This document shows, one piece after another, positions 4,827 through 63,700 of a stretch of 64,000 nucleotides of DNA. The stretch is from positions 104,075-168,074 of the forward strand of contig JAQGDQ010000487.1 of assembly GCA_030141605.1 (NCBI GenBank), read 5' to 3'. The position numbers and the translations under genes were made by a program. The notes beneath the pieces are model-generated. The model searched no databases, had not been told where the DNA came from, and saw only the letters and a list, made by a program, of their open reading frames with translations. This DNA is from Tubiluchus corallicola (lineage: Eukaryota; Priapulida; Priapulimorpha; Priapulimorphida; Tubiluchidae). The stretch's first letter is position 1. Each line of letters opens with the position of its first letter.

Positions 4827-37131
<32,305 letters not shown>

Positions 37132-41843: not shown

Positions 41844-44800
41844 GTATAATAAATGTTTTTTCCATATTTCAGAGTTGTGTTTATGACGTAATTGGAACAG
41901 TAACACGATTGATGATGTCAACAGATTTCACACTGCAGTAAGCAAAATTATATATAAGTAAAATTTAAGTATAGATTATAATAATAAAATCTCTGACTCA
42001 GTATTTGCTGATTTTCTTGTGTTTATGACGTAATCGGAACAGTAACACGATTGATGATGTCAACAGATTTCACACTGCAGTAAGCAAAATTATATATAAG
42101 TAAAATTTAAGTATATATTATAATACTAAAAACTCTGACTCAGTATTTGCTGATTTTCTTTATGCAAAAGACAAAGACAAGATTTCTTTACCGTCGCTCA
42201 TTTAACAGACAGGATTAGCACTAATGGCTATTTAGCGACTTACACTTGTACAATAATACAGGTAAAGACGCAATACGCAAATAATGAATAACCTGTAAGG
42301 TATATGCCTCGACGTTTGTAGCCGCTAGACTCAAACTCGAGACTGTGTGGTTTCATTAAATAAAATAAATAAAAATAACTTCATTTCCTTTTCATTTGTT
42401 TTAATAAAATTGAACAGGTTAAGTTTCTGCTGCTTCACCATAACGTGTTTTATAGGTACTTGGGTTCTGTAGAAGATCTGACATTATCACCAACAAGTGA
42501 TGTGGTGGATAGGAGTGCAGAGGCACAACTAATCGATAAACTTGAGGATGCTCAGGTATGCATTTAGACACTCAGGGTCTAGGATGAATGTCTGTTTGGA
42601 GTACCTTGAGGATGCTCAGGTATGCATTTGGACACTCAGGGTCTAGGTCTAGGATGAATGTCTGTTTGGAGTACCAAGTGGTAAGGATGAGCAAGAGTTC
42701 TCTGTTTGTGACTAGGTAACGACCACTTTGAAACGGGTGCATTATCAACGTATGAAGTACCTTCTGGAGGCCAAATACACCAAAATTGTTTGGCTCGTAC
42801 ACATATCTGGGTTGCCGGACCTCGCTTTTACGGATATCGAAAGAATCGAACAAAATCTGGACCAACAAAGTCCCACATACTACGGACGCAGTGCAGTTGT
42901 TTTGCGAGCTGACCGCTAGTTGGCAGGCCATCAATTTGCTTACATCATTACATCAGTGTAATCAAGCAGCGTGTAACGACACATGTGTAGCTTGCGTGTT
43001 AGCGTGTTTAAGTGGTTTAGTCAGAGTCGATTATGCAGAGTTATTTGAGTCAATTGCTGACAGTTTTTCTATACTTTTGTATAGGAGTGTCCCGTACAAG
43101 CCGTTTTTGAGACAGTTAAGAGATTTGTTCTACATTACCCTGAGTCTAATACACGGTACCTACTGTATTAGCTTAGTGTCGGTAAATATGGGCAATCGGC
43201 AAATTCGGACCGATGTCTCCCCGCTTTTGTCTGGCAAAGTGAAATGTGGGTGTAATTACAATTTTGCCTTCGATTATAATTGATAATATTATGAGCTGCA
43301 GTGTTTTTCAAGTTTTACAAGTCAGCCTGAAAGACATTGATAGTTTATTATTTTATTGTTGAGGTTTTGTGTGATAAAATTTAAGTGCTATATGACATAT
43401 AACTTAGTTATTACCAATGGCATTGATAATTTTTTAGCTGGAGGGAAAGTTGCCTTACACTGCGTCAGAGAATGCGAAGGGAGTCTTACTGAATGTATCA
43501 AAGCATGGCATAAAAGTCATGGATGTGGCAAAGAAGGTAAGAAATGCATGTTCAAGAATCAAAGAATTTTAAGATATGTTAAAAAATTCAGAACAAAAAG
43601 CATCAGCTATACGGCTTCCGATTTTTTCTTTCAAAATTGACCAATTTGCGTTTCAAAGAATCGTCAATTCCGCTTCACAGAAATTAGAATGTACGTGGCC
43701 CTGTAACTAATGTTTATCATCAAATTATGTGATGTGCGATAGACTGTAATTAAAAAAATAAATTTTTATATGAATTAAGTATGTAGTCTATCAGGTATTT
43801 GTATTGGGCTAAGGTAAAATAAGAATGCCAACATTTAATTCGCACACAAAAGTCACGGAACAACATGCTATCATATTCGTATAAATCATTGGGAAACTAC
43901 CTGGCTAGCTGTCACATGCATAACATCGTCAGATCGTGTTTGTGTGAAAAGGGGAAACCTTTCCACAAACGTGGCGCTATTTGCTACAAGCTGTCGTTAA
44001 AAAATCTCCCATATTTCTTTTGACAAATGCAAAAACAAAGTGAAAGTAGGAACACAAGTTGCATAAAAAATAAAATTCCGGGAAGAACTTCTATTAAGGT
44101 CACGAAAGGCTGCTTAGTTTTGCCGGAAAGTATCAAGTGAAGAAAATTCCGTCTTTAAATGCATTAAATTGGCAGAGAAATCGGAAATCGGGGCAATTCT
44201 GTTTGTCATAACTATTTCCGTTTCAGTTACCCATTTCTGTGAATTCCGTCCGTTTTCCGCTATCGCTGAAAATCGGATGCCCTATATATATATATATATT
44301 TATAGACTGATTAAGAGATAGTCGAACATGATATTTTGGTTCAGTCCATAGTTCACTACAAAAAAGGACTTTTGATCACATAACATGATCATTACTGTCC
44401 AAAAATCGCTAAAGAGTTATTTACAAATTCACAATATGACATTGGGTTGCCATTGAAAAATTCATGCAGATCGTTAAAGTTCAGTTCAGTGATTCGTAAG
44501 TGGACAAAAACAGATAACATGCTCTTCTGTTTGATTGTTTAAACCAGGACAGGAGCATAGCCTGTCTTCTCTTTTTATCCTTGCCCGTCTTCCAGTCTCA
44601 ATAGCTAGGTTATGTGAGGAGAGGCCTAACCGAGATGTTCTAATCCTATGGAGCTCATTTAACACTATACATTGCACTGACAGATAGTACCTACAGCTGG
44701 TACATGTTAAAACTGCCCAAGCTAAAAGGAATAAAAACAATTTGTGTTCACACCAATAAGCAAGATACTATTACCACTGTTACACCACCAGCATGCATCA

Positions 44801-46643
44801 GTAACATTTATTTTCAAGCTTATTTGCTAATTAATGTAATTTCTGTGCTACTTGCTTGGTAATGGCTTTTATTTTAAAAATTGTTACCAATAAAACTGAA
44901 ACTTGATAACCGGTTGATTCTTCATCACAGTTTTTCTGTCTCAGATTTCCTTTTTACCTAAATTTTACCCATTTTATCTGTTATATAAATGTGTAATTTG
45001 TGTAATTTGTTAAATGTGTAATTAGAAATTACGTATTTACTTGAAGATAAAAATTAAGTATTCTCATTTAATCTACCTTGTTTTTACAGCTACATAAATA
45101 AGAATGTTTCGCTAGCTGTGACGAGAAAAAATAATGTGCCTATTTGTCGTTCAGTAATCACAAAAAATTGTTTTTGTCTACGTCATAGATTATTATTCAT
45201 CCTATTCACTTAAGGTATATTATTGAATGTTGTAAAATGTGTCCTATTTACTTGTGGTGTATTACCAAAATGTTGTGTATCCTAATTACTTGTGGTGTGT
45301 TACCAAAATGTTATAAAATGCATCCTATATACTTGTGGTGTGTTACCAAAATTTGTAAAATGCATCCTAATTACTTGTGGTGTGTTACCAAAATGTTCTA
45401 AAATGCATCCTAATTACTTGTGGTGTGTTACAAAAATGTTGTAAAATGTATCCTAATTCCTTGTGGTGTGTTACCAAAATGTTGTAAAATGCACCCTAAT
45501 TACTTGTGGTGTGTTACCAAAATGTTGTCAAATGCATCCTAATTACTTGTGGTGTATTACAAAAATCTTGGAAAGTCTATTTCAACTACTTGTGGTGTGT
45601 TAGCATAATACAAACATGATTCTGAAGTCACTGTTGGATCTCCATATAAAATTTTTCATGTTTACGCATCTTACCGGGAACACTACGAATCACCTTTTCG
45701 ATAAATCGTTTTTTTGAAAATTTTACCTGAGCCAGTTTGACCTGACATTTTCCGGTCGTAGAGTAAATTGGCATTTTTACAATACCATAACAAGTTCAGT
45801 AAGAATAGAAACTTGATTATAACGTACTCTCACTTGTCGCATTTCTACGCATTTTAAAGTTTTTATTAACTTTATTTCTGTTTTTACAGGATGTTTTTCA
45901 AAGGCATCCATTGCATGTCATTGCACAAGCCATTCACTATGCTGACGGACTGGGAAAGTTTAACCTTGTAATAAAGACTGGGCAGCCGGGAAAAAACACG
46001 TTTAGCTGTTACATATTCCAGTCCAGTGCTGAGGTGTGCTTTTAAACATTCTCAGTTTGTTTGTTTCACAGTGCTTTGATTGTGGTTGGGATGTGGTCAG
46101 ACAGTGGTTAGAGTGTGGTTAGACAGTGGTTGGCTGTGGTCAGACAGTGATTAGAGTGTGGTTAATGTGTGGTCAGACAGTGGTTAATGTGTGGTCAGAC
46201 AGTGGTTAGAATGTGGTTAGACTGTGGCTAAGAGTGTGGTTAGACAGTGGTTTGAGTGTGGTTGGGATGTGGTTAGAGTATGGTTAATGTGTGGTTAGAC
46301 GGTCAGAGGTTAAGAATCAGTGAATTTCGCTTTGACCATAGGATCCCTTTTATGCGAGGGAATTTACATGGGTTTCTATTACGCGGGACTTGGAGATATC
46401 GTCCCTTATAACCGAAAATCCCTTTTATCCGAGCACCTTATATGTGAAGATTTTTACATAGGAAAAACATTACAAAAAATTGGTACCTTATACCCAAGGT
46501 TGACTGTACAATCAACTAGCAACATATTTTCTCCTGTTTCTATTTAAAAATTGTATTTTGTCTTTGTTGTTTAGGATCAAATTGTTGGTGTTTCGAAGAA
46601 TCTACAGCAGATATTTAATCAAATAACTCAAACTCAGAGGTAG
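41746..46643 (+). CDS. ITGB1BP1: Integrin beta-1-binding protein 1 (ICAP-1) orthologue, whole gene
   Basis: ICAP-1 is a PTB-domain adaptor that binds the membrane-distal NPxY of integrin beta-1 tails, competing with talin and kindlin, and also binds KRIT1. Exons at 42456-42555, 43438-43536, 45890-46033 and 46575-46643 are secure. They give a PTB domain starting YLGSVEDLTLS and passing through LEGKLPYTA, VSKHGIKVMDV, DVFQRHPLHVIAQAIHYADG and CYIFQSSAEDQ to a stop after NQITQTQR. Human counterparts are [40 protein letters not shown] and CYDDGLG. Internal introns are phase 0. With the candidate first exon the product has 169 residues against 200 in human. The human Ser-rich N-terminus is not seen. 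Integrin control is inferred from the family. Confidence 0.92.
41875..42158. repeat. 142-base tandem duplication in ITGB1BP1 intron 1
   Basis: Two copies at a 142-base period, over 95% alike by eye, each from TTGTGTTTATGACGTAATYGG to CAGTATTTGCTGATTTTC. The second copy differs mainly by a few substitutions, so the duplication is recent. Confidence 0.9.
42456..42555 (+). CDS. ITGB1BP1: ITGB1BP1 exon 2: PTB strand 1 and helix
   Basis: After acceptor TTTTATAG it completes one codon and reads YLGSVEDLTLSPTSDVVDRS then AEAQLIDKLEDAQ before donor CAG|GTATGC. It aligns with human [20 protein letters not shown] and LDLINYIDVAQQ. The last 15 bases and the donor are duplicated in the intron (42605-42674). 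Confidence 0.93.
42541..42674. repeat. 64-70 base tandem duplication of an exon-intron edge
   Basis: The unit begins CTTGAGGATGCTCAG|GTATG (exon 2 end plus donor) and runs to CTGTTTGGAGTAC. It is repeated at once at 42605. The second copy gained a 6-base GTCTAG duplication. Both donors are intact. Confidence 0.95.
42790..43240 (-). repeat. Dispersed element family I, inverse copy
   Basis: Colinear with the inverse of 35010-35420. It ends near CTCGCTTTTACGGATATCGA. The 165-codon open frame at 42786-43283 lies wholly in this repeat and is not a gene. Confidence 0.7.
43438..43536 (+). CDS. ITGB1BP1: ITGB1BP1 exon 3: PTB core
   Basis: Reads LEGKLPYTASENAKGVLLNV then SKHGIKVMDVAKK between acceptor TTTTTTAG and donor AAG|GTAAGA, phase 0 at both ends. 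It aligns with human [20 protein letters not shown] and [10 protein letters not shown]. Confidence 0.96.
43640..44480. other. Intron sequence, nothing recognised
   Basis: ITGB1BP1 intron 3; contains a short (TA)n at about 44282-44300 and no exon. Confidence 0.5.
44480..44680 (-). mobile_element. Non-LTR retrotransposon C-terminal fragment
   Basis: The minus strand reads RTSRLGLSSHNLAIETGRRA then RIKREDRLCSCPG and QTEEHVICFCPLT, the same cysteine-rich tail as the fragment at 13110-13950. It is short and truncated at both ends. Confidence 0.75.
44690..45200. other. Intron sequence, nothing recognised
   Basis: AT-rich DNA before the 43-base array; no exon or bounded repeat was seen. Confidence 0.4.
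45205..45610. repeat. 43-base minisatellite, about nine copies
   Basis: The unit is near ACTTGTGGTGTGTTACCAAA then ATGTTGTAAAATGCATCCTAATT. It is in ITGB1BP1 intron 3, 280 bases before exon 4. Confidence 0.95.
45890..46033 (+). CDS. ITGB1BP1: ITGB1BP1 exon 4: PTB strands 4-6
   Basis: Reads DVFQRHPLHVIAQAIHYADG then LGKFNLVIKTGQPGKNTFSC and YIFQSSAE, phase 0 at both ends (TTTTTACAG; GAG|GTGTGC). It aligns with human [20 protein letters not shown] and SLWVYQCNSLE. Confidence 0.96.
46080..46310. repeat. 14-20 base minisatellite of GTGGTTAGACAGTG type
   Basis: About fifteen irregular copies of GTGGTTAGAGTGTGGTTAGA-like units, immediately followed by a family J copy. Confidence 0.9.
46318..46508. 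repeat. TIR element family J, right half
   Basis: Shares AATTTCGCTTTGACCA, GTTTCTATTACGCGGGAC and the right end AAGGTTGACTG with 59176-59632. The open frame across it also occurs in the other copy and is not a gene. Confidence 0.7.
46575..46643 (+). CDS. ITGB1BP1: ITGB1BP1 exon 5: C-terminal PTB helix
   Basis: Reads DQIVGVSKNLQQIFNQITQT then QR-stop. It aligns with human AQAICKVLSTAFDSVLTS, the amphipathic C-terminal helix that closes the PTB fold. Acceptor GTTGTTTAG, phase 0. Confidence 0.94.
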   Translation, partial: DQIVGVSKNLQQIFNQITQTQR

Positions 46644-46662
46644 CGCAAAGGATTTCCGTGCG

Positions 46663-46668
46663 AATAAA
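46663..46668 (+). terminator. Polyadenylation signal AATAAA
   Basis: Lies 20 bases after the ITGB1BP1 stop codon; if used, the 3' UTR is very short. Confidence 0.5.
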
Positions 46669-46862
46669 TTCATTTACAGGAATTTTATGGAACAATCTCG
46701 TTCGATCAGCTGTGATATTGAGAGTGGAGAAAACGATGTTTCAGATGCAAAGAAGTCATCGTAAGATGTCGAACTTTAAGTGCATAAGAAATGTCATGTA
46801 AATCGTGTCTAACTGCACCATCAGTTACTTAAGAAATGTCTTATTATGTATGATAGATCCAG

Positions 46863-47581
46863 TACTGTAAGACCTCGTATAACAGCTCTAATGTGTTCCA
46901 GCAAAACACGACATTAAACGAAACGTCTTTAAGCGAAACCAAAACTTCCATAGAAATTAATGTAGAAGAATTGAGATTCATTGCAAAAGCAAAAATTTTA
47001 TGCTGCTAAAATTGCATAAATTAAACTCGTTATGAGTTTCTCTTTCTATCTGCTTGTTTGAAACCACCTGTCTTTCTTATCAATACGTACCTAGCTGTGG
47101 TTTCTCTTTCATTAAGGTTTATGCCTAGGCAGCCATTACAAACACTGCAGAGTCAAAGCCAAGTGCTACATGAGGCGACCTTGGTAATTTTATCATGCCA
47201 GAGCACTGTATAATTTACTACCTAGTCAGTCTGGTTGCTATAGGAACAGATTGCAGGTAGAATTCCTTCCCACAAACTTTGTTCACAGATCTTGCTTGAT
47301 AAAAAAGTATAGTAGTCAGTCAGGAAGCAAAAACATGTATAATAATTGCATTGTTTACGTTACTGATGCACTTTTAAAACAGAATAACGCAATATGTGCT
47401 GCTTTAATACTTCAAATTAAGTAAAAAAGTTGCTGATCAATGAAAACTGGCTTTCAGCAAAGTAAAAAAATCGTCGTTAAAGTAAAATGTACGTCGTGAA
47501 GTGAAAAAAGGTGTCAAATGTTCAGCGTTGTTAGAACGAAACCTTGCCAAACGAGGAGTCGTTAAGCGAGGATTTACTGTC
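46863..47581. repeat. TIR element family F, full copy
   Basis: About 720 bases, starting TACTGTAAGACCTCGTATAA and ending CGTTAAGCGAGGATTTACTG. Colinear with 34051-34704. Confidence 0.75.
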
Positions 47582-47689
47582 CTACAATGCGCTGTAGTTT
47601 TCTGCAACAGGTTCAGCAGGACAATAATAATAATTTGCACTTTCTGCATTTTTATGGTTACGATTTTCTGCTATTATATTAAAAAACTA

Positions 47690-47760
47690 ATCGTGGGCTT
47701 CCAAACCAAAACCGTCCATAAGTCGGCATGGTTAAAACTTTATGCTGCTTCCAAGTAGAA
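47690..47760. repeat. TIR element family E, end fragment
   Basis: Only the end (TTCCAAACCAAAACCGTCCA, TAAGTCGGCATGGTTAAAAC) is present. Confidence 0.6.
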
Positions 47761-47794
47761 TGACCCAAAAATTTGGTGAATCTTTATCGCTGTC

Positions 47795-47935
47795 GTTCTA
47801 GTTGTTGTTGGTGTTGTTTTTGCTGTTGCTATTGTTGTTGTTGTCATTGTCTTTTGTTATTGTTGCTGTTGTTGTCACTGTCGTTGTCGTTGTTGTTGCT
47901 GTTGTTGTTGCTGTCATCGTTGTCGCTGTTTTTTA
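47795..47935. repeat. Imperfect trinucleotide repeat (GTT/GTC/GCT)
   Basis: Irregular TTGTTGCTGTTG-type tract; the Cys/Leu-rich frame is an artefact. Confidence 0.9.
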
Positions 47936-47939
47936 ATCA

Positions 47940-49035
47940 CGTTTTATTTCAATTTAGAATTTAATTTGACAACTAAAGATGGCGTGGACAATTCTCAGTT
48001 CCAAATCTGGATTTTTTGTTGCTTTTATTTTAAGCTTTATGCTTTCTGTGTAGTACTGACTTTTAAATGCGCCAGTTGATGTTCGCATATTAAGCCCATC
48101 AAGTTGGATCCTGCATGGTGCTGCCATCTAGCACCGAAGATAAAATGAAAACAGTTTACACTGCCTTTAAGATTACGTTGCATTTACTATGTAGGCACAT
48201 TCAGTTTAGTTTAGGCTTACTTTTGTACAAAAGCTCTAGTGGCAAATGTATAGTATCAGGTTTGCACTGACTTTGTAGATATAATATAAAATAAATTAAC
48301 TATTCTTTAGTTTTAAATAAAGAATGTGTTGCATTTTTATTCCGCCATCAAATGAACAATAAACGTAATCCTTTCCTTAGATCAGAGCCATCTAGCAGCC
48401 ATAATGTGAATAACACCACATATAGACTCTTATTAATGGTGAAAAATCAGTGGTATTGTATTTTTCAATAGGACTTCAACACTGAATTAGACTTTGCCTT
48501 ACAATATTTCGTCAAATTGTAACTATTACCTTTAGGTGTAAAAAGTCACCATTTGTGTAAATTTTTTCTGTTATCACAAGAAAGACAGAATAGTTGGGTG
48601 ATCAGTAATGAATTTATAAGTGCATGGGCTGGAAACCAGAAGCTGCATGCTGGATCATTGGTTCACATTCATATGAGTGTGAAGTAATTATGTTGGTGGT
48701 GTTATGTATATTATTCTTATGTGTATTATTGTTATGTGTATGATTGTTACGTGTATTATTGTTATGCGTATTTAATTACAAAATAAATAAATTGCAGTTG
48801 GATTAACTTGCTAATTAAATGATTAATTAATTAATTAGTAATTTAAGCAATACTAAAAAACATTGTTAGATGAATCACACTCGCTTAGATAAGTCCAGTG
48901 ATCACTCGACGCAAACAGTTGCGGAAAAGATACAAATACATAACCAGAAAAAATGCAAAAACGTAATTAAGTTGCCAACGATAAGAAGTACCTACTATAT
49001 TTTTTCGTGAAATGGTTTGAGTTTTCGTAAAGAAT
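47940..49035. other. Intergenic, with a 14-base microsatellite
   Basis: At about 48695-48775 five copies of GTTATGTGTATTATT occur. No gene was seen in the rest. Confidence 0.5.
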
Positions 49036-49039
49036 TCCA

Positions 49040-49630
49040 AAGGTAAGAGGCTCGAAAGAAGAAGCTGGATTGATAAGCAGCTCTCTGCATCTAGGAGTAG
49101 TGAAAGTTATAGCAGCAGCAGCAAAACGAGTAATTCAAACAAACCGCCTGCGTTTAGGTGGCTTGTACATTCGAAGAGGAGGTAATGTGATTCATGAAAA
49201 AAACCTTGGTAGTTTGTTAGACACCAAAGCCGACATACAAAAAGGAAAATTCTTGCATTGTCTGCTTATTCAGATCTCACAATGGTTTTTGAAAACAAAA
49301 GACTGTCTTGAATCCAAAATCCAGATCCTTTCTACTTTAGTTGAACCTGTGTTTTTGTACAATGCTGAGCTATGGACAATAAAAGTTAAGCAGCAGAAGG
49401 GAATTGCCGCTTTTCAAAGAAGTCTGTAGGAAGTTATTAGCAATTAGATGGCCTGAGAGAATATGCAATGATGATCTGTATAATGTGGTTAAGAAGAATC
49501 CTTGGAGTAAACAAATACAAGTAAGAAGATTGCATTGGATTGGGCAGGCACTAAGATTACCTCAAGGGTCTCCTCTTCCTATGATGATGATGATGATATG
49601 TATTACGTAAAGCTATTGAAGCGACAAAAA
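49040..49630 (+). mobile_element. Frameshifted non-LTR retrotransposon fragment
   Basis: Frame 1 (49070-49429) reads NVIHEKNLGSLLDTKADIQK, STLVEPVFLYNAELWTIKVK and QQKGIAAFQRSL. Frame 2 (49404-49610) continues CRKLLAIRWPERICNDDLYN, then KKNPWSKQIQVRRLHWIGQA and LRLPQGSPLP. This is the conserved sequence after the polymerase domain (LYG.ETW, LL.IRWPD.I.N.ELY, RRLRW.GH.LRLP). At least one frameshift near 49425 breaks it. Confidence 0.88.
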
Positions 49631-49739
49631 GCCGAAAGCCGTCAGCTTACAGCTAGACAGGTAGTGGCAGCGGACAGGAATAAAATTAATTGCATTAACA
49701 TTTGGAATGTGCCTTGTTTTCAGATGTAGCAACATCAAA

Positions 49740-50879
49740 ATGACGAAGACAATGATAAAATGCTGAGAGCATCTTCCATTACAGCAATAAAAGAAACTTA
49801 ATGTGGAAACTTAATTTCAATAACTACTATTACCTCTGCTCAGTTAATCTAATTTCACAGTGAAAAATTCCTCATGCAGTTCCTGAATTTTGATGCCAGC
49901 TAGAAGCTATGCGTCCTCCTCGTGAGAAATTTCCCCGCACGGTGGAAATACTGCATGTTCCATTTTTGTGAGGAATCCTCGGTGAATTCAGTTTTAAATT
50001 TAACACTCAGTTACTTCCTTCTTATTTAAAGAACAACAATTAACACATTTCAGCATAAAATTCTAAGATTTAATTTCTCTTTTAACAGACTGACGATTTT
50101 ATGTTGTATTAATGCAACACCGATGGCTCTATTTGTGAAAAAGGGAAAATGACGCACGCATATATTTATTTTGTATAATTTTTATATGCTTTTTCAGATT
50201 TTGAAGTGGCTAGTAGAACTTTACTAAAAAAACAAACTGGTCTGACATTACATTGACTAACATTATTAATTGTACTTGTACATGTGAAATATGGCAAGTA
50301 TAAGTTAGTTTAGACATTGTTATACAGTATAAAACTCGTAAAGTAGCTGCAGCTAACTGGACGGGCGGAAAAAACTGCGAGGTTTCATTATGAAATGAAT
50401 TTAGAAACGAATTGCTTCTCTGACAGCAATTCCGTGCGTCTTTTTCCTTGAGTCCTCATTGTGAAATTTTTTTTATTTAAATTTGATCATCCAGTCTCCA
50501 CCGTGAGCTTATTATATATACTTAGTGACGTAGGTCCAACGGAAACTCGAGCGGAGCTTTTATCTAGGCACGCCACAAAGGCAGCTGCATGTTAAAGGCG
50601 GGCAGGTGTTCATTTATAACATCTGCGGGGCATAGGCCAGTCCCTGGGCGAGCAAAACGTCTACATAGGTTTGATTTGAAGAGGTGAAAATCTGAAATGT
50701 TATAACTCGTCTGACATCTTTAGAAATTACACCGCGTCGCGTGTGGTAAACGTTCAGTAAGTGGGAGTTTCAACCGTTTGTGAAAAAGTGCGAAATTGTT
50801 GAAAATATTCTCGTCTTTAATAACTTCTAACGAGGTAAAAAAGTAATTCAGGAGAAAAAACGGAAATAGAGATAATCAC

Positions 50880-50880
<1 letters not shown>
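49740..50880. other. Non-coding, possible promoter area of the Ly6 gene
   Basis: No exon found. 50515-50640 is richer in CpG than its surroundings. It could be an upstream promoter or 5' UTR exon, without direct evidence. Confidence 0.3.
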
Positions 50881-51414
<534 letters not shown>

Positions 51415-51495
51415 AGCATGTTATTGTTATTACAGTAAAACCAGGAAAGGGATGTGTGGTTTCATCACATAACAGTCGTCTGCAAAGCTGACTCC

Positions 51496-51571
51496 ATGCG
51501 TTATGCAAAACTGATCAACAACGTTGTACTGCTGCTGATGTTGTTGGTACTGGTCACTAGTAACGCTAAAG
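51496..51571 (+). CDS. Ly6-like gene exon 1: signal peptide
   Basis: Reads MRYAKLINNVVLLLMLLVLV then TSNAK, donor AAAG|GTACGT, leaving one base. A short n-region with Arg and Lys, a 13-residue hydrophobic core and small residues at -3/-1 make a standard signal peptide. Confidence 0.88.
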
Positions 51572-54500
51572 GTACGTACAACAATTTACTTTGTTTAAAT
51601 TCATTTCTACTTCTTTCCCGTTTTTCTCAATCTGGTAATTGTTTAAAACAGGAGGCATCCAGCACTCAATGATACCAGGCACAGCAATGACAATTTTTTA
51701 ATTTATTTAATGACTGTAAAGCTTTACAACGTTACAGCTAAAGGAGTGGAAGTTACGTCATAGATAGAAAGTGGAATGTGCAGTACTTAACGGTAGGTAT
51801 TGTTGAACAGCTGTAGCTGTACCAGAACCTAACTTTTTATTCTAACTTATCTTTGAACAGTTAGTGTTCTTTGAACAGTTAAAGAGAAACTGAACTGACG
51901 GAGATCTCTTAATTAGTTACGCCTGGATGCAATTACATTCTTGGTCCTCGTCATTGCTGTGTACAGTATGGCGGAAAAATAACCTACTGGAAATAATTTT
52001 CCCAACTGTCACCCATTAATTTATTGACCGCCGAATTTAGTATTGCCTAACTTTGTATTTATCTTCATGACCCGTGCAGAGAATTGCGATAAAAATCAAT
52101 CCTGGCGAAAATCAAATGGCTGTGCATCCTTCTACTTGTAGGCTTTTGTTACTACTAAATTTTCACAAAAAAGTGTGAAAAACTGTTGGCATATGTTTTG
52201 CTATATTAAAGGAAAACCGGACGATTGTTTAGACTCAATCTCATTTTAATTTACTGTCCAAAATATACATTTTCTCTTCTCTTATCTACAAAAGTACGCA
52301 ATTGTTTCTTATATTTGAATAATTAGCTTAGAAAGTTAATTAATGGTAAACGAACACAGCTATTGCTTACGTCAGAAACTAACCACAGTTTGTGCAATGG
52401 CAGGTGTCTTCCCTTGCATGTCAAGCACATTTGCATAGGTGTTACAGTACTGTTTAAACGCATGTCACGAAAATGGGCTCTACATCATATGACGTCAGAA
52501 ACTAACACTGCAGTTCATGATCATGGTTATCACGGTCCCGCCTTCTATTTGTCGGCCATGCGAATGTGACAAAAAGGCGCCGGTGCCAATCTTAGTAGAT
52601 TCACTGAGCCACGCGTAGCTTTGAAAATTTAACAAAATTTGAGTATGCGAGGTAATTATTATTTTATCTAAGCTTTGATTTAAGATAAGCTATTGTAGTT
52701 TTCAATATTTTAGAGCATTCTTTATTCTGAACTCGTGTTTGCACAATCGCTTATCTGTATATTTGTCTCACTAACTGTGCATAAAATAAGGAGAATAAGA
52801 GCAAGATAAAACATTTATGCTCACCAAATGTAAATGTACATGTCATGATTGCCCAGAAAACAGAAGGTCTTGGGTTCGAGTCCCAGCGGAGTGAAAAACT
52901 TTAGTATTGTTTTTGTGTTCGTCTTACATTGGCCAATTGCGCTAACCTATCAAGGTTCACAAGGCTGCCCAGAAAACAAGGTTTTGGGTTCGAGTCCCAG
53001 TAGAGTACAAACTTGAGTACTGTTTTCGAGTGTTCATATTACATGGCAAATTGTGCTAACCTATCAAGGTAACATGGCGTCAAGAAAACAGAAGGTTTTG
53101 GGTTCGCATCCCAGTAGAGTGAAAACTTTAGTATTGTTTTCGAGCGTTCATATTTCATTGACCAATTGTGCTACCCTATCAAGGTTGACATGGCTGCCAA
53201 GAAAACAGAAGGTTTTGGGTTCGAATCCCAGCAGAGTGAAAAACTTTAGTATTGTTTTCGAGCGTTCATATTGCATTGGCCAATCCTGCTACCCTGTCAT
53301 TTACGGTTAAGCCTATCAAGGTTACCATGACTGCCCAGAAAGCAGAAGGGTTGGAGTACCAGTAGACGTGCAAAAAATTTTAAGTGTTTTTTTGCGTTCA
53401 TATAATTGATCTTGTACTACAATATTAATAGTGTGGACTGTGATTCCTTGCTAATAGACCAGTAGAGGCTTATACTGAAAGCAAAAACCAGTAGCTCTGT
53501 GGTGTAATCATGAACGTAGGTGCCTGAAAACTTGGTCTTAGGATCAAGTCCCAGTGGAAGTGCAATTTTTTTTCACGCTTTCTAGTTTAGTATTGTTTTT
53601 GTGCGTTTACATGATAGATAATGATGTCCCGTTATTGTAAGACAGGTGGACATCACATCAGAATGTATTAATTATGAACAAGGCTCGTTTGATGTGATTG
53701 ACTGGACAGATGGTTCAATGCCCTGCAGCGGTTTAATTTTTCACTTGAACGGCAATTAATTACCATTAGTAATTAGCTACACATCCGGAGAAATAAAAAT
53801 TAATTATTCAGTCCTTGTATTAATATTTATAAATATCACTAACTTTAATTAAAATTGGTGACAAATATTATATGGCAGATATTATAATCATTTGACTATT
53901 TTTCACATTGTCTGGAATTAAAGGACAAGTACCCGTTTTCACTTCTCCCATAATCCAAGTTACTAGACTATTAAAATTAGTGAATTCTGGCAGATATTAT
54001 AATCATTTGACTATCTTTCATATTGTCTGAAATTAAAGGACAAGCACCCGTTTTTCACTTCTCCCATAATCCAAGTTACTAGAATGTTAAAATTGGTGAA
54101 TTCTCACAGATATTATAATCATTTGATTATTTTTTCAGTGTCTGGAATTAAAGGACAAGTCAAGAGATGTTACAACTGTTTGTATGGGGAAAGTGTCCAT
54201 GGGAACATGCTGACTAAAGTCATAGGTTTGTGTTTACACTAATTACAATCTGTTGTCTATACTTATCACATAATTATGGAGTAATTATGAATAAAATCAT
54301 TTATTACATCAGTGACCTTGTGCCCTCGGGTAGCTTCATTTCTTATACGTTGCCACTAGTTCCTAAATGCCAACCACTTTGTTCATAGTATTCTCTTTTC
54401 TGTTGGTTCTGACAGGTTTCAGCTGGACATTCATAGATGTAGTACAGCAGCTTAGAAATTCGTTTTTCCTTCGAACCTCTTATGTGTGGAATTCTCTATC

Positions 54501-57500
54501 GGAAAATTATTCCCTTAAAAATTGCAACCTCACGTGCTTCAACAAGAACATTAACAGGGAGCACATTCTTCAAATTAGTAGTACGGATTCTACTTCTCTG
54601 GACAAGCCCTCACATTTTTATTTTAATACCTTATCTTGAGTCACCATTGACCTCATTTAGGTGATTTGTGTAAAGAAGTGTAGAACTTAATACCAAGGCC
54701 GACTACACTGAAAGCTGTGGTAGGACTAGAACATAGCTGATTAGCTAGCTGGCAAATTTTCTCAGCCATGGACTGGATGAGAATGTACCCTCATTTGATG
54801 AACAAACAGCCTGCAGCAGTGAGCAAGTGATATCAAAAGTGGGTCACCCATCCAGCTACTAACTAAGCTCGGTCGATGAACCTGGCTTACAAACGGTAAT
54901 GCCATGGATGCGAAAACATAACTGCACAAAAAATGAGGCAACCATAGTTATGAACAAAACAGCATTTATTAGCACAACATTTAAGAGCTAATATTGATTT
55001 TTTAATTGCATGCAATATCAAATTTTACAGAAAATAAGCTGCTACCTCGGTCAGAAATGTGCGGTGATCCACTGGATTTTAGTGGAGATGACGATCATCT
55101 AGTGGTGGAGTGTGCGGGATCATGCGTCAAAGTAAAAACGCTATTACATGGTTAGTGTTTTAGTTTTGTTTCACTTTAAACATCCTGTCACCGCTCAAAG
55201 TTCAAATTTCAAAGACGGATTTAATGTTGCCAATTTTATTTTGTTTGTGTTCAGTGTTTTGAATCAAAAAATACAAACAAACTGTGTAGGTGAGATGATC
55301 AGCTTTTATATTGTTATTCAAGTGATGCTGTGCCTGCAATGCCGCTATGTGGGCAGAGGAAAGAGGGTTTGAGGATAGCGGAAAGCGATCGAAATCCAAA
55401 TCTTGGTCAGCTTCCTTCTGATGGAACTAAGCATAGATCTGGATCAATAAGCATTTTCACAGTTCCAGTGATTGATGATGATCGTGAAAAGTCAACGGAC
55501 AAGTGTACCAAACAACGCATTTGTGTACACTTGACAACGCCTCGTAGTCTGTGTTATTACGTAATAGCAACAGTTTTAACAGCTAGCTAGAACCTTACTT
55601 GGTTCAGTTTTTCTTGTTCCCAAGCAAGATTCTGCTAGTAAATCACTCTATGCTGAGACTAGTACATAGTTAAGTAAAGTCTGCACAAAACAACTGCAGT
55701 TACTGAACTAACGTGGCAGACGGCTTTGCTATCACATGACGGTTGTAGTTAAGACGCATTACTGTGGTACACTCAATCTTTGACCTACACCAACTGGACG
55801 TGCGGACAATGAAACTATGAAAAGGCTTATTGACAGAGTTGCTGACATGTAGGCAAACCGCGAGGTCTGCTTATACGTTGTTGTTGTTGAGCAGGCACTT
55901 GTATTCAGCAGTAAGTATTCCACTGGGGACTTGTGCATAAATGAAAAAGTACTTATAACAGTCGGCAGTTCATAATTTAAGCTATAATTTAAACGAGTGT
56001 TCGTCCACCTTGTGTTCCTGTGCAAGTCAAAAATATCACTCGGGTTTTATCGGTGTGTCTCATTGCAGATAGTAATGAAACAAGTTTCTGTTCTCCTTGT
56101 TTTGCTAATATGACGTTGGGCTATTTAGATTCATTTATTTATCCATTTAGCACAATATTACAATATTGTAAATATTAAATTCGGTGGTATATATTGGTGG
56201 ATATATAACCGACGAGGCTACAGCTCCAACGACGGCACCATTCTCGACGATCTATACATCAAGCAAAAGGTCCGGACCCATAGATTTGCCATTGGGGTTT
56301 TATTTTTCGAATCGGGCCCACCGGGAGAAACGGGGGGGGGGGCGAAAAACCTCCAAAAATGGTCATTTTTTGCAAAACTTATATCTCTTATTTCTAGAGA
56401 TCCGGAATGGGCCGTGGGTGATGCTGGTAATGGTTGAATAGTGCATTTATAATTACAGAATTGACAATGATTGTAGTGCTATGAGCGTAGCAGAAGAAAT
56501 TATCCATGCTCAACATGTATAAGCCTTTATTATGGCATAGGCAAACAATAAGCCTTTTCCTGGTTTTGCTGTATGCATGCACAGTTGCTGTAGGTCAAAG
56601 GTTAAGTATACCACAGCAATGGGTCTTGACTACAACCATCACGTGACATGTGGGTAAAGCAATGCATCAGTTCAGTAACTTCAGTCGTTTTACATGGGCT
56701 TTACTTAATTATGTAAGGTCAAAGGTTAAGCATACCACAGCAATGGGTCTTGATTACAACCGTCACGTGACATGCGGGTAAAGTAATGCATCAGTTCAGT
56801 AACGTCAGTTGATTTACATGGACTTTACTTAATTATGCAAGGTCAAAGATTAAGTATACCACAGCAATGGGTCTTGATTACAACCGTCACGTGATATGTT
56901 AGTAAAGCAATGCATCAGTTCAGTAACTTCAGTTGTTTTGCGTGGACTTTACTTAATTATGCATTAGTCTGCATAGAGTGATTTACTAGCAGGATCTTGT
57001 TTGGGTAAAGCAAAGCGTCAATTCAGTAACTTCAGTTGTTTTACATGGACTTTACTTAATTATGCATTAGTCTGTGTGTAGAGTGATTTACTAGCAGGAT
57101 CTTGCTTAGGAACAAGAAAAAATGAACTAGGTAAGGTTCTAGCTAGCTGTTAAAACTGTTACTATTACAACAGCATGTACTGCGAGGCATTGTCAAGTGT
57201 ACACAAATGCGTCATATGGTACACTTAACCTTTGACCTTTTCACGACCAAATCGCTGGAACTGTAAAATGGCTTGAACAATTCAATGACAAGCAAAACTA
57301 TATATGATGTGTATGCTGTGTTACCTTGCCAAGTTTGTAGTTTTTTTTTGTTCATATTGTAACTTATTTGCAGGAGTTGAAGGAGTCAAACGTCACTGCC
57401 TCATATCAAATAAACACACGAGGAAAATGCCAATGTGCCTTAGTAGAGAGACGTCCAATTCAAAGCTTGAAATTTGCTACTGTAGTACTGACTTATGTAA

Positions 57501-57585
57501 CAAGACACCACAGACGTATAGTCCTTGTACAACAGTTATGTTGTTGTTCTTATGGATCAGCCTCAGATATTTAAGATTAATTTAA
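51496..57585 (+). CDS. Ly6/uPAR (Quiver/Sleepless-like) GPI-anchored protein, whole gene
   Basis: Four exons (51496-51571, 54139-54225, 55031-55150, 57374-57585), all introns phase 1, encode 164 residues. A signal peptide (hydrophobic LINNVVLLLMLLVLV, cleavage likely after TSNA) is followed by a three-finger domain from CYNC through MCGDP, VVECAGSCVKV, KRHCL and MPMC to the CYCSTDLCN end. Ten core cysteines fit the LU fold. The ECAGSCVKV...KRHC...CYCSTDLCN spacing is like insect Quiver/Sleepless, which tune potassium channels and nicotinic receptors. The tail TTVMLLFLWISLRYLRLI is hydrophobic and terminal, as in GPI-anchored proteins, though it carries two arginines, and one extra Cys precedes it. 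Function here is unknown. An in-frame ATG at 51454 would add 14 residues before the signal; 51496 gives the better signal peptide. Confidence 0.88.
51700..52195. other. Intron sequence, nothing recognised
   Basis: Start of Ly6-like intron 1; no exon was found. Confidence 0.4.
52206..52620 (-). repeat. Dispersed repeat family D, inverse full copy
   Basis: The inverse of 15672-16085, with both ends present: TTAAAGGAAAACCGGACGAT at the left and TTCACTGAGCCACGCG at the right. Confidence 0.75.
52845..53400 (+). repeat. Tandem array of about five 115-120 base units, each with a pol III B-box
   Basis: Each unit has GCCCAGAAAACAGAAGGTTT, TGGGTTCGAGTCCCAG, CTTTAGTATTGTTTTCGAGC and AACCTATCAAGGT. Four of five units keep a B-box-like GGTTCGAGTCCC or GGTTCGAATCCC. 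It appears to be a tRNA-related SINE amplified in tandem inside Ly6-like intron 1. Confidence 0.85.
53485..53600 (+). repeat. tRNA-like SINE piece
   Basis: CTCTGTGGTGTAATCATGAA (A-box region) and GGATCAAGTCCCAGTGG (B-box region) are at tRNA spacing; it ends in the same CTAGTTTAGTATTGTTTTTG text as the neighbouring array. Confidence 0.5.
53875..54160. repeat. 115-base tandem repeat running into Ly6-like exon 2
   Basis: Two complete units and a third half unit. Each has GATATTATAATCATTTGACT then TGTCTGGAATTAAAGGACAA. In the third the latter is the first 20-odd bases of exon 2. The TCTGG/TCTGA marks at 53911, 54026 and 54141 are exactly 115 apart. Only the third unit has the CAG acceptor. Confidence 0.92.
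54139..54225 (+). CDS. Ly6-like gene exon 2: first finger
   Basis: Reads (V)SGIKGQVKRCYNCLYGESV then HGNMLTKVI. Acceptor TTTTTTCAG completes G|TG; donor CATAG|GTTTGT leaves one base. RCYNC is the classical first Cys pair. Its first seven residues are encoded by the end of a 115-base tandem repeat. Confidence 0.88.
54367..54660 (+). mobile_element. Non-LTR retrotransposon C-terminal fragment
   Basis: The open frame reads LRNSFFLRTSYVWNSLSENY then SLKNCNLTCFNKNIN, resembling the widespread R..FF..R....WNSLP......S...FK...D end of jockey/CR1-type polymerases. It has no reverse transcriptase core. Confidence 0.7.
55031..55150 (+). CDS. Ly6-like gene exon 3
   Basis: Reads (E)NKLLPRSEMCGDPLDFSGD then DDHLVVECAGSCVKVKTLLH. 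Acceptor TTTTACAG, donor CATG|GTTAGT, one base at each side. It carries three cysteines, among them the C..SCVK motif typical of Quiver-like proteins. Confidence 0.9.
55438..55720. repeat. TIR element family C copy
   Basis: Starts CAATAAGCATTTTCACAGTT; the interior is an inverse match to 2860-3250 (GAACCTTACTTGGTTCAG, TTCCCAAGCAAGATTCTG). Confidence 0.65.
55725..56165. other. Intron sequence, nothing recognised
   Basis: Open frame 55759-56025 on the minus strand has no gene character. Confidence 0.4.
56170..56445. other. Locally GC-richer segment of unknown origin
   Basis: An 85-codon frame (56184-56441; YIGGYITDEATAPTTAPFST, then KRSGPIDLPLGFYFSN) crosses a G10 run. The text (GGTCCGGACCCATAGATTTG, GAATCGGGCCCACCGGG) differs in base composition from the neighbouring intron. 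It is probably an inserted element; I do not recognise it. Confidence 0.3.
56547..57276. repeat. TIR element family C, expanded copy
   Basis: From AATAAGCCTTTTCCTGG to GCTGGAACTGTAAAATGGCT. The interior holds three to four tandem copies (about 118-base period) of AAGGTCAAAGGTTAAGTATA through ACTTTACTTAATTATG. Confidence 0.8.
57374..57585 (+). CDS. Ly6-like gene exon 4: last finger, GPI tail, stop
   Basis: Reads VEGVKRHCLISNKHTRKMPM then CLSRETSNSKLEICYCSTDL, CNKTPQTYSPC and a hydrophobic tail TTVMLLFLWISLRYLRLI-stop. LCN is the hallmark end of the LU domain. Acceptor TTATTTGCAG, one-base entry. Confidence 0.9.
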
Positions 57586-57663
57586 TTTATTTAAAAACCA
57601 TATTTTGCATGCCGCAAATTTTTCTTATTATTGTGATTAGTTAGTTAATTTCATATTTTTGTA

Positions 57664-57669
57664 AATAAA
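57664..57669 (+). terminator. Polyadenylation signal AATAAA
   Basis: About 80 bases after the Ly6-like stop codon, within TGTAAATAAATAG; the likely 3' end signal. Confidence 0.55.
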
Positions 57670-57961
57670 TAGATATATTGAGAGGGCATGCCATGTGACA
57701 CGTCTTTATGGTGGGATAAACAGATATGAGATAACCCGCGAAAGTTTTGCAATCAAAATTTGAAAAAGTTAAGCAAAAAGATATCCACTTTCCCGATACA
57801 GACTTGGCGTTCCTACCATTGTGTTATCAGAAACGTTTTAAGTTTTTCATTTTACTCCGAGTTGTACATTCATATTCTGTGTTTAATGATTGTCTTAATT
57901 GTAAAATGTGTATAATAACTATTGTACAATTCTAAAATTACATAGCAATGCGATAATATGC

Positions 57962-58500
57962 GTGCTTGCAAACCAAAACGTCCATAAGTCGGCATAGTTA
58001 AAACTAAGTTATGAAGCAGAATGCACCAAAAGTTTGGTCAAATGTCGATTTTTTATTTTTTATGAAAACAAATGCTACATATACTGGACTTTTACATTCT
58101 AGCATCAAATTATCAAGAAAGTGTTCAAAAACACTAAAAATCTAATTTTATAACTCCTTACCCACTTTTCTGTCTAGAAACTAGTACTGCAATTGTAAAT
58201 GCATCTACTGGATTTAAACGTAACTTCAATGTGTTCTTGTAAAATCCATAGCAACTACACTTTCGTACGGTTGCTAAGTGTTTTGTAGAGATGCGACAAA
58301 AAACAATAGCTGACTTTAACAGTGATTTTCTCAAGATTATGATTTTCTCTGTGCAGCCTGCACCTCAACTTCAATGTGGATTAATTCAGCTTAGAAATAA
58401 CATAGAGCGATGAACTTGGTATCAAAATGATCTTCATGAAATGGAGATTCAGGATATGTGAATAACTAGACTTATGGACGATTTTGCTATGCAAGCACAC
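57962..58500. repeat. TIR element family E, copy 2
   Basis: The inverse of 25045-25600, both ends present. It has no transposase frame. Confidence 0.75.
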
Positions 58501-58504
58501 AATT

Positions 58505-59170
58505 ATTCTATTTCTTTTATTTCCTTGTTACTGAATTTTTTATTAACTGTTTATGACCTTTATTGCTAAGACTTTCTATGTGATTTTCTAAATATTTAAT
58601 ATAATTAGGTAAATAGGACGAACCTGCTTGTTGCATAATATATGATCCACATAAAAGTGGAGCCTCAAGATTGATTCTACAGATGGTAGCCATTTTGGAA
58701 TTTAAAATAAATTTCTGCACACACCAAATGTTCCGTATCATAAATTAAGACAATTTGTGAAATATTTAATAAAAAGTTCCGAAAATATTTTTTAGAATGC
58801 AAGTTTTTACAAAAATGAGGTAAACAATTTATTTGCAGAATTTAAAAGCCAGTTGATACCCGTTAGTTAAGTAAACTAAAATAAACTCTAAACTATATTT
58901 ACTATCAAAAATTTCAACAGCAAACAACAATGCAGCATACCTAGTAATGTAACGATGATTTTTTAATGATAGGAATTTTTTTGCAAATGCAAAATGAGCG
59001 CCCCTTTTTCACAAGAAAACTTGGTTTTAATGAATTGTTGATATTATTACAAAAATCTGGTTTCACTGCTTCACTCTTCAAGATATTTCTTGCCTCTAGT
59101 TTTGAACTTACACATATATTGTATTCACTTTACAGTTCTGTTAGAAAACTTTGTGTTGAAAAGCAAAACA
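58505..59170. other. Intergenic, nothing recognised
   Basis: Lies between the convergent Ly6-like and DSCC1 genes. The minus-strand frame 58517-58741 shows no family resemblance. Confidence 0.4.
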
Positions 59171-59175
59171 AAGTG

Positions 59176-59632
59176 CAGTCAACCTCGGATACAAGGGACA
59201 CCTCCGGACCGGAAAAAGCCATCCCTTGTATCTGATGTCCCCTATAGCCGAAGTTGAATCAGACCGAGGGTGCATCTAGATCTGTACTTTTACTCATATT
59301 TTTATGGATTATTGCTACACATTCAGTGCAAACAGTATGTAGGAAGCTCCGTCAGTGATGCGAGATGTATGTGACCATGGAAACCGAGTTGTTGGAAGGC
59401 CGAGTTTGCGAAAAATTGAGATTAAAAATCGATCAATTTCGCTTTGATCAGAGGGTACCTTATATGCGAGGTAATTTGCCTGGGTTTCTATTACGCAGCA
59501 CCTGAAGACTTCGTCCCTTATATCCAAGTACCTTATATACGAAGATTTTTACATAGGAAAAACGTTACGAAAAATCGGGACCAGTGTTGGTGGTCCCTTA
59601 TAAGCGAGTATCTTATACCGAGGTTGACTGTA
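59176..59632. repeat. TIR element family J, full copy
   Basis: CAGTCAACCTCGGATACAAG at the left, CTTATACCGAGGTTGACTG at the right (inverse). The 457-base element contains GTCCCTTATA/TATAAGGGAC subrepeats. It is non-coding; related pieces are at 46318-46508 and 61525-61718. Confidence 0.85.
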
Positions 59633-59639
59633 TATGTAC

Positions 59640-60650
59640 CTTTGCGCTACACATATTTGTCAATAGTCATACTAAGCATAGACAGATGGCAACTGAGTAG
59701 AGTCTGCAGTAGTGTTGCTGTTGTCTGGGCAACTCAGGATCTCCATACACCTTGCCCAGGCGTGCGCCCTGGAGACGTTCAAGGATCGCATTGCTCAGCC
59801 ACAGTCGACGCTGCAGCTCCATCAATGTGATCAATAACTGACTCTCTTGGCGCACACTCCATTGCCTTCCGAGATACAACGATGCCAACTACTTGATACA
59901 CTTACTTGATGCAGTCATATAAAGGCATATTTTTTTCATTTAAAAGGTAAAACGCAATAATTATTATAACATTCTTCTCTCATGGAACGCATTTTTCCAC
60001 GGCTAACTCTTGGCTAGGGTTGCCGTTTTGTATGATGCTTATTGTATTGGAAGCTAAAAGTGTCGAATTTTCCGCCAGATCGGTGTATTAACAGCCGAGT
60101 AGTGTTGCCGCTTATACCATAATTATCAGAACATACGTTCATGATACAAAAAATAGACTATACAATAATCAATGATTACACAATAATTTAGTAACGTGAA
60201 ACTAAAAAACAAAGCTTGAAAAAATGTCTATTGAAAAAATTTAAAACATTACTATACGCTTAATAGGTTTTCGAATAATTTAACAGCTGAAAAATAACTA
60301 AATAAAATATTACCAAAAAACTTACGAGATCATTTTAGCCTATGTCTGTGTTTTCAAGAAGAAAATTTTACATACATCTTTTTCCGTTTGTATGTGGTAA
60401 TACAGCGTATCTTCGGGCTAGGTCCTTTAAGATGATAGATTAAATGAAAACGCTCTAAAGTTTGCAAAGATTTACCAATTTTTCATTATCCGAACTGATC
60501 AGCATATTGGATCCGAATTTAGCTAACCTATCCGGTTATAATCCGAATCCAAAAGTCAGTTTGAGGAAATATTCGATGATATCCGGTATTCGCTATCCGG
60601 TAAAAAAAGTGTAGCCGGTCTCCTGTGTATCCGGTCTTCAGTCTGCTGTG
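59640..60650. other. Non-coding stretch downstream of DSCC1
   Basis: A minus-strand frame 59667-59888 (QLLITLMELQRRLWLSNAIL, ERLQGARLGKVYGDPELP) is richer in GC than its surroundings and looks protein-derived, possibly a retroelement fragment, but I cannot place it. At 60495-60610 TATCCGGTA/ACCGGATA pieces form a small decayed inverted-repeat element. Confidence 0.3.
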
Positions 60651-60656
60651 CCACCG

Positions 60657-60765
60657 CTATAATTTGTAACTTTTAGAACTGTAAACCCGCATGCCATTCT
60701 GAATGGAAGATCTCGCGTGCTTGGTTAAAAGTGCATTAACATCTGTCTTCTCGGCAGTGAGGTCT
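60657..60765 (-). CDS. DSCC1: DSCC1 last exon
   Basis: After acceptor TTTTCCAG it completes GA|A and reads DLTAEKTDVNALLTKHARSS then IQNGMRVYSSKSYKL-stop (TAG at 60657-60659). ALLTKHARSSIQNGMRVYSS is nearly the human ALLTKYSRSSMQNGVKVYNS. Confidence 0.95.
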
Positions 60766-63700
60766 CTGGAAAAGTACGAAATCACTCAATAGTGACAGCA
60801 AAGGGAGACTGGAACTTGACAAAAAAAACTTGACAGTTTTTTTTTCAATTTAATTCAATTCAAAATTTATTTGTCTCTCTTAGAAGGATTACAAAAGTAC
60901 TATAGTTAGCGAATTATATATATCAACAAAATGGAGGCAGTTTGGTGAAAGACCAGGGGTCATCTCGTTAGTGAGATCCGTACCTTTCTTCTCGGTGGTG
61001 AGGTCTCTGGAAATGTACAAAATCACTCAATAGTGACAGCAAAGGGAGCTGGAGCTTGACAAAACTTGACGCAGGTTTTTTCAATTGAATTCAATTCAAA
61101 ATTTATTTCTCTCTCTTAGAAGGATTACAGAAGTACTATAGTAAGCAAATTGTATCAACAAAATGGAGACGGTTTGGTGAAAGACCGGGGTCATCGAGCA
61201 GCCACCTCTATATGAATAAGTGAATTTTAGATACCACAGTTTTTTTTATATGATAATATATGTATATGTTATATTGTCTGTATCAGTTAGTTGTGTATAC
61301 TGTGTGCTGTTGATTTAAACTTGTCTGAAACAAAAATTATAATTGCGCAAATAATTATAATCAATTTAGAGATTTTTGAAGTTTATGGTGGACAAAATGA
61401 TGAAAAATGAAGCAATGTAATGAAATCATACAGTACCGATTAACCATGCATTGTAAGATAAAGTAAATGAACTATAATAAAAAAAAAGAAATTGACCGAA
61501 ACCATATCAAACATCTATATATATAGTCAACCTCGGATATAAGGGACACCTAGGGGCCGGAAAAAATCGTCCCTTATAGCCGAAGTTGTGTCAGACCAAG
61601 GATGTATCTAGACCTGTACCTTTCTGTATTTTTACCCATATTTTTATGAATTTTTGCTACTCATTCAGTGCAAACGGAATGTAGGAAACTCCTTCAGTGA
61701 TGCGAGATGTATGTGACCGGATGACAGTAACTTGTAAAGCTGTTCACACTTGCGAGTTTGTTGTCAAATAACTCGAAAGCATGTTCAAAACTCTCTGAGA
61801 GTTACTCTCCAACAGTAAACACGAACTGAGGCACGTTTTTTTCTATTCTCTGCAAGAAGAGTAACTCACTGAAGCATTCACACTAGACAGCAAATCCACT
61901 GGCAGAACTGTTGGAGAGTTTGCTAGAACTTGTAACTTGCTGACAGTAACTTGTAAAGCTGTTCACACTTGCGGGTTTGTTGTCAGAAAGAAAACTAGTA
62001 ACAGAAAACTCGCAACTAGGAAAGTATCGCAAAGTTTGTAAATAATGTTACGTGTACTGATTTAAATCTAAAATAAATAAGACACAAATAAATAGAATTA
62101 ATGCTGCAAAATATTTTTAATATCAGGGTTAAAAAAACTTACTCAATATAAGGTTTAATTTCTTCTAATGTCCATTTTGGCTTCGTCTTAAATAAAGCCG
62201 AGAATCTTTCCTGTAAATCCGTAGGTAGTTCCGAAGCGGGATAATACTTCACTACTTCCGGTTTAACGTTTCGGTCCACCAACGCAAGCCCCTGAGAAGT
62301 AAACAAACAAGTAAACAACAACAGCAAACTTACCGTATATACGAGCGTACAAGTCGACCTTATGTACAAGTCGATGTGCATTTTAAGACCAAAAATTGCA
62401 TCATTTTATATATTACCTGTGTACAAGTCGACCATAAAATATTAAGATCTTCCAGAGTAAATGATGTCAATAATGGCCGAGTAATAAATCAATAGCTTAC
62501 TGTGTTAGTGTGTAAGATACGTGCAAGTGCCTGGGCCGTGTATATTATACCTACCCGATGTATTCATGTTGAGGGCCCTCAATGCAATTCGTGATAATGT
62601 AGCCTGGCCTTTCATCGTGCATAATTGTTTGTAATGCCTTTAACTCTAGGATATCGCGGCCAGTCGTAACATTTCAATCGCTGATTTCTCACTTAAAACT
62701 AAAAACCCATACCTGAAACGTCACAGTTTTATACAGTAACATCATTGGCGATTTCCATGTTCTGATCGAGTGCTCCGTCGCTAGTTTATTTACAGGTAAT
62801 ATATAAATTTTAACTTAATTTCACATACATTAAAATAAATTACAGTAATATTTGTTAATTTTGTGAAGTAATGTCAAGATGCGAACATTCTCTGATGTGA
62901 AGTATGAGTGTTCATTCAGTCCAGCGTATAATGAAGGATTATTTCTTTACATATTCGTATTGTAAAGACTCTTTAGCGACATCTCCCAAAAACATATCGT
63001 AAGTATAAGTCGACCCCAAAAATTTCACCTTAAAATCGCCTCTCAAAAATTCGACTTGTACATAAGTATATACGGTATCATTCATAGATCAGGTGTATCA
63101 AAATTTATATGTGTATACATTCAGCCATGAACCCCATCACATTCTATCTTTGAACTCCTGAGTTCATATTAGTATTTGTATATTAGCTACGTAACAGATA
63201 TTTCACTAAAATTAAAATATTCTGTTTATCTATTCGCATGAAAACATTTTCATGGGTGTTTTGAATTTTTCATACGTGGAATAAGGCCTATCTTTCATTG
63301 TCATACAATGTTATTTGTAGGAGCAATAAGGCCTATCTTTCATTGTCAGTTTGCAGTTTCCCTTACTGATGTATATGGAAACAGCACATCTAGTTATTTA
63401 TTATTGTTTATTTTTTGTACATTTGTGGAGGTCGATGAGAAATCAAGGATCCGTGAAAGTGTCAATGGTCCAAAAGTTTGGTGACCCTAATTCATATATG
63501 GATAATTAAATATTCTAAATTTTCACAAAAAGACAGATTCACGAAAACGGTAAATGCTTCTTAAGGAAAAGATTAATTTTACGAGAAACGAGCAAGCGGG
63601 TCATGCTGGATCCAAACACCTCGGTGCTTGCATTCTAGCTGGCCATAAAATGAATAATAAGTATCGGGACATCAATAGCAACGAGTTAGTTCTTAATGGC

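Follow-up and report, generated by a model that had tools for sequence, protein, structure and literature searches.

Genes and splice borders of the window

A first-pass annotation of a 64,000-nucleotide stretch of the Tubiluchus corallicola genome (contig JAQGDQ010000487.1; C2178:104075-168074, hereafter the window) proposed that exon edges are tandemly duplicated in three of four genes. The assembly comprises 343,548,820 bp in 2344 contigs, and the window DNA is animal. Four genes were modelled here with GT-AG borders and open frames: a RUFY-like gene, ICAP1 (ITGB1BP1), a gene of QVR/Ly6 type (Ly6 below) and DSCC1. ICAP1 is identified by the Pfam family ICAP-1 (E 4.7e-18) and by PDB entry 4dx8 (E 1.1e-14), Ly6 by Pfam QVR/Ly6 (E 1e-8), and DSCC1 by the exon preceding the last one, which matches Pfam Dcc1 (E 3.2e-15). 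The RUFY-like gene occupies 14 exons of the minus strand, found with a human RUFY1 probe and then refined by hand.

The models supply 45 splice borders (27 in the RUFY-like gene, 7 in ICAP1, 6 in Ly6 and 5 in DSCC1), a set that does not extend to the first exon of either ICAP1 or RUFY, nor to the greater part of DSCC1. The matrices used to score splice sites were built from 24 acceptors and 22 donors within the window; the training sites include the three genuine duplicated borders and one spurious donor, a GT that follows the stop codon of DSCC1. What is given below on the copies, on where the borders lie, on splice-site scores and on effects on the reading frame is read directly from the DNA.

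Duplicated exon edges in three genes

All three tandem duplications were recovered, each lying on a real exon border of a GT-AG model with open frames. The duplicated edges belong to ICAP1, Ly6 and DSCC1 and the RUFY-like gene has none, as first reported. The features concerned, in window coordinates, are:

42456..42555, plus strand: ICAP1/ITGB1BP1-like exon (exon 2 of the first-pass annotation), ending LEDAQ/gtatgc; Pfam ICAP-1, GT-AG model
42541..42675, plus strand: ICAP1 two-copy tandem duplication, units of 64 then 70 nt
42620..42625, plus strand: duplicate ICAP1 donor GTATGC, 9-mer score 9.5, equal to the original
53848..54160, plus strand: Ly6 acceptor array, spacing 115-122 nt, in which 22 exonic nt are copied twice more ahead of the exon
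54139..54225, plus strand: Ly6/QVR-like exon 2; Pfam QVR 1e-8, acceptor score 16.9
60655..60765, minus strand: DSCC1 last exon, EDLTAEK...SYKL stop, beginning at 60765
60743..61195, minus strand: DSCC1 two-copy duplication, spacing 232-241 nt, of intron end, acceptor and 23 exonic nt
60984..61006, minus strand: upstream DSCC1 copy, with an acceptor (8.9), 23 exon-like nt and then a donor AAG/GTACGG (9.8)

The ICAP1 unit consists of 15 terminal exonic nt, the donor and 49-55 intronic nt. Its two copies differ by one substitution and a 6-bp insertion and, read by eye, abut and share one base. The donor CAG/GTATGC at 42556 recurs at 42620, and splicing at this second site would append V C I and a stop. 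Because the copies are nearly identical, the ICAP1 duplication is probably young. A separate two-copy duplication of 142 bp, its copies 97% alike, precedes the ICAP1 exon by about 300 bp (41875-42160).

In Ly6 the end of the intron and the first 22 exonic nt are present three times. The two upstream copies lack the AG, their best acceptor scores being -0.9 and -4.3 versus 16.9 at the exon. About 39 nt between the copies are absent from both flanks. The copied residues, VSGIKGQV, precede the match to the QVR profile, which begins at about residue 10. Further upstream, a 114-bp array of about four copies (52841-53403) carries the motif GGTTCGAATCCC, which resembles a tRNA B box; the array is possibly derived from a SINE (short interspersed element).

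The last exon of DSCC1, EDLTAEKTDVNALLTKHARSSIQNGMRVYSSKSYKL, came from an exon scan and fits the spliced model, bearing out the first-pass annotation. An alternative model of this exon, ending GGCSMTPVFHQTV, was discarded when the scan turned up EDLTAEK...NALLTKHARSS. We recognised that sequence by its likeness to the human C-terminus, with no database alignment over the exon. A second occurrence of the acceptor with 23 exonic nt lies at 61006, at a spacing of 241, and about 19 nt between the copies are unmatched by the flanks. The acceptor is intact in each copy, scoring 10.1 at the exon and 8.9 upstream. Judged by these predicted sites, the upstream 23-nt piece could possibly act as an out-of-frame micro-exon or as the start of an alternative last exon: spliced in between its acceptor and the donor that follows, it would shift the frame, and if its acceptor alone were used, the C-terminus would differ and run to a stop, an AATAAA being present at 60871.

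A donor minisatellite in a DUSP16/8-like gene

Sequence beyond the window was sampled from the same assembly as 30 stretches of 10 kb, of which 250 kb without N remained once bacterial-looking contigs had been removed. Direct-repeat arrays were defined by an offset of 30-600, a length of at least 28 nt and 40 bits. The ends of the arrays (206 in all, 46 in the window and 160 outside) were then scanned for a splice site with coding sequence within 30 nt. Eight ends matched, against 3.85 expected from 112 matches at 6000 random positions. Three of the eight are the known cases. One of the five new matches is strong, and the other four (three in C2 and one in L016) are weak and within chance.

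The strong match, a fourth case, lies on the minus strand of stretch L010 (G000:C9) in a DUSP16/8-like gene. The exon ends ...LLHCMAGISRSPTFAIGYVMKHLQISSDDAYR and the coding sequence continues after the intron as YVKEKRPVISPNFNF; the joined protein matches DUSP16 (E 1.6e-44) and contains a DSPc domain (8e-35). The 24 terminal exonic nt and the donor of this exon head a minisatellite (L010 4732-5979) in whose units about 24 exonic nt and a GT donor are repeated, and which holds 14 GT donors including the exon's own, 12 of the 14 being exactly CAGGTAAGT (CAG/GTAAGT). Read-through beyond the first donor would add AYR and a stop. A BLAST comparison of the repeat unit with the rest of the 346 kb sampled gave no match, and our ab initio exon finder failed to predict the exon. 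The 3' end of the same gene carries another array (L010 2608-3031; 80 bp, 5.3 copies, 99% identical), which on a reading by eye starts about 36 nt before the DUSP stop codon.

Borders and arrays compared with chance

Because arrays cover 15.3% of the window and 13.6% of 346 kb (bacterial-looking contigs included), and because 54 few-copy arrays occur in the 250 kb outside the window, array matches at borders are to be expected. The first-pass annotation had suggested a genome-wide habit of duplication at exon borders. With the 45 borders shifted round the window as the null, coverage was not above chance: 3/45 borders lie in arrays versus 6.9 expected (P 0.97), and 3 genes have a covered border versus 2.5 expected (P 0.49). 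None of the 27 RUFY-like borders is inside any array, the three covered borders all belonging to the other three genes. With few-copy arrays alone (n=11, sorted by hand), 3 borders were covered versus 3.0 expected, and 3 genes versus 1.5 (P 0.07). What exceeds chance in the window is the number of arrays with a short exonic overhang, which is weighed below.

Outside the window, exons were predicted by an ab initio finder trained on the window, so that its in-window score is optimistic. Among ten of the 24 exons predicted, six had Pfam matches at E <0.001, four of these above the curated cut-off. None of 38 predicted borders lay in an array, these being the borders of the 19 exons that remained when four lying mostly inside arrays, and a fifth scoring under the coding cut-off, were set aside. 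Candidate borders in the combined 314 kb, defined by splice and coding score and including decoy copies and false sites, were likewise covered without excess (12/78 versus 11.8 expected); the window contributed 10/43 versus 6.6 (P 0.14) and the sequence outside it 2/35 versus 5.3.

Origin of the duplicated edges

We consider it probable that the duplicated edges are small tandem duplications of the ordinary kind, in a duplication-rich genome, with no special mechanism aimed at splice sites. In form they are just that: head-to-tail neighbouring copies with a unit of tens to hundreds of bp, which may have arisen in the repair of staggered breaks or a similar process. A duplication straddling a border could survive selection because one complete exon with its own border stays on the outside, and the partial exon copy and the spare splice site end up inside the intron. 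The spare site would then be a decoy, intact in ICAP1 and DSCC1, destroyed in Ly6 and multiplied in DUSP. Such decoys are presumably passed over in splicing and would be neutral or mildly harmful. In ICAP1, DSCC1 and DUSP alike, splicing at a spare site would disrupt the protein. Selection might also account for the shortness of the exonic pieces, since a longer piece would probably compete more as an exon.

Several observations weigh against this reading. In the window, arrays that cross a border and end no more than 25 nt inside the exon number 3 versus 0.40 expected (P 0.006), and the same shape with few-copy arrays only gives P 0.0008, the 25-nt limit having been fixed after the cases were known and the window itself chosen on account of them. 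Across the 314 kb, 4 arrays exit no further than 30 nt from a candidate border versus 0.76 expected (P 0.007), with a cut-off likewise fixed post hoc. Genome-wide, two copies of CAGGTAAGT stand 60-90 nt apart at 466 places versus 60 for the reversed word, and single words number 5468 versus 2250, a 3.2-fold excess of tandem pairs over the reversed control per occurrence; these are counts of word positions, with the DUSP place alone assigned to an exon border. The short overhangs and the excess of pairs could hint at a bias towards borders. On such an account duplication or array expansion would be focused near splice sites, for example through breaks at transcribed exon borders, and would seed minisatellites and spare sites genome-wide. 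It would fit with the three border-crossing arrays of the window, which carry just 15-23 exonic nt even though any overhang at the 45 borders was allowed, and with the 14-donor ladder of DUSP, whose array carries 24 exonic nt, though the scan that revealed it did not look beyond 30. However, borders are not over-covered in the window and not covered at all among those predicted outside it, where short-exit arrays number 1 versus 0.32 expected (P 0.29). Moreover, few arrays supply many of the donor-word pairs: among the first 100 of the 466 places (to contig C507) a few arrays account for most, leaving 16 clusters by hand count, against 4 of the 14 clusters that the control forms over all its 60 places. 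This cluster excess is not significant (binomial P 0.22, computed with 17 clusters before the recount of 16). We therefore regard a focused process as unlikely, and it is equally doubtful that exon borders are preferred seeds of duplications and minisatellites, each carrying about 15-25 exonic nt with a splice signal and building ladders of spare sites of which DUSP would be the end stage.

The annotation's idea of a genome-wide habit finds partial support. In its favour, the duplications are real, they occur in three unrelated genes and in a fourth outside the window, and arrays in the combined 314 kb exit into exons by short overhangs more often than expected; it falls short in the coverage of borders, in the sequence outside the window taken alone and in the cluster count.

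The annotation's other suggestion was that exon borders originate within tandem repeats; on that view one copy of an existing repeat would gain a splice signal and become an exon edge. In Ly6 such an origin is possible, the AG being confined to the copy that adjoins the exon and VSGIKGQV preceding the part that matches QVR. In ICAP1 and DUSP, however, the copied residues fall inside stretches that align with solved relatives, and because the coding sequence at the border is so aligned, these two borders are probably older than their copies; the DSCC1 residues fit the human C-terminus. As a general account, this order of events is improbable. That the duplications are working devices, with spare sites serving regulated splicing that yields, for instance, isoforms with a stop or a different last exon in DSCC1, seems very improbable: the spares of ICAP1 and DSCC1 do score like real sites, and the upstream DSCC1 piece has an open alternative C-terminal end with its AATAAA, but the Ly6 spares lack the AG and the predicted products are truncated, shifted or deprived of the usual C-terminus. 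An assembly artefact, which the near-identity of the ICAP1 copies might suggest, is hardly credible given the many differences among the copies of Ly6, DSCC1 and DUSP; ICAP1 is less well protected by this argument.

Were duplications seeded preferentially at borders, they would keep supplying genomes with alternative splice sites and new introns. Even if the duplications are ordinary, the tandem near-identical 5' splice sites of ICAP1 (two) and DUSP (14) constitute a natural experiment on donor choice.

Relation to known systems

In the potato RdRp gene, an intron was gained by tandem duplication across an intron-exon boundary, and RNA-seq reads support the new spliced intron (PMC4974935). DSCC1 is similar in that the end of an intron and the start of an exon are duplicated, with a strong predicted donor directly after the copied exonic piece, so that sequence scores place an acceptor (8.9) and a donor (9.8) around the 23 nt; it differs from the potato case in being known from sequence alone and in that its micro-exon would shift the frame. 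The tandem genomic duplication model of intron gain (Rogers; Hellsten 2011; Gao and Lynch 2009) is covered in a review that presents tandem duplication as the route to new introns for which there is support in vivo (PMC3443670). As in that model, tandem copies here provide spare splice sites of AGGT type; the model duplicates an exonic AGGT segment, whereas the present cases copy an existing border and are seen in DNA only.

Small tandem duplications arising from break repair have been described (PMC8355091), and among the 824 donors of a human set 4 are classed as partial exon/intron (PMC2671141; PMC8355091). The present duplications resemble the repair-mediated and small tandem duplications of those sets in being local and of tens to hundreds of bp; the sets come from vertebrate genomes or cell lines, whereas a repair origin here would be read from anatomy. 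The tandem dual-specific splice sites of UBC (PMC10809524) also form an AGGT array within one gene and recall the DUSP donor ladder, although UBC units are coding monomers, whereas the array of DUSP lies in an intron, where splicing at a later donor would run into a stop. Among the matches listed from a limited literature collection, no paper described tandem duplications as over-represented at borders across a genome, and none was on point for duplicated splice sites or intronic splice-donor minisatellites.

Further observations

Ten further open reading frames (ORFs) of the window had no Pfam match above the curated cut-off. A predicted exon on the minus strand at 31394-31653 is perhaps a 5' exon of the RUFY-like gene and likewise had no Pfam match above the cut-off. 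In the sample outside the window, stretches L002, L014 and L017 (contigs C1, C200 and C2000) carry dense long ORFs and look bacterial by eye; the ORFs are of ribosomal-protein and elongation-factor types, which points to bacterial contigs within the animal assembly. Two contigs bear arrays with a period of 33, most of whose units contain CAGGTAAGT, at G000:C5:114068-115594 and C265:66011-66580.

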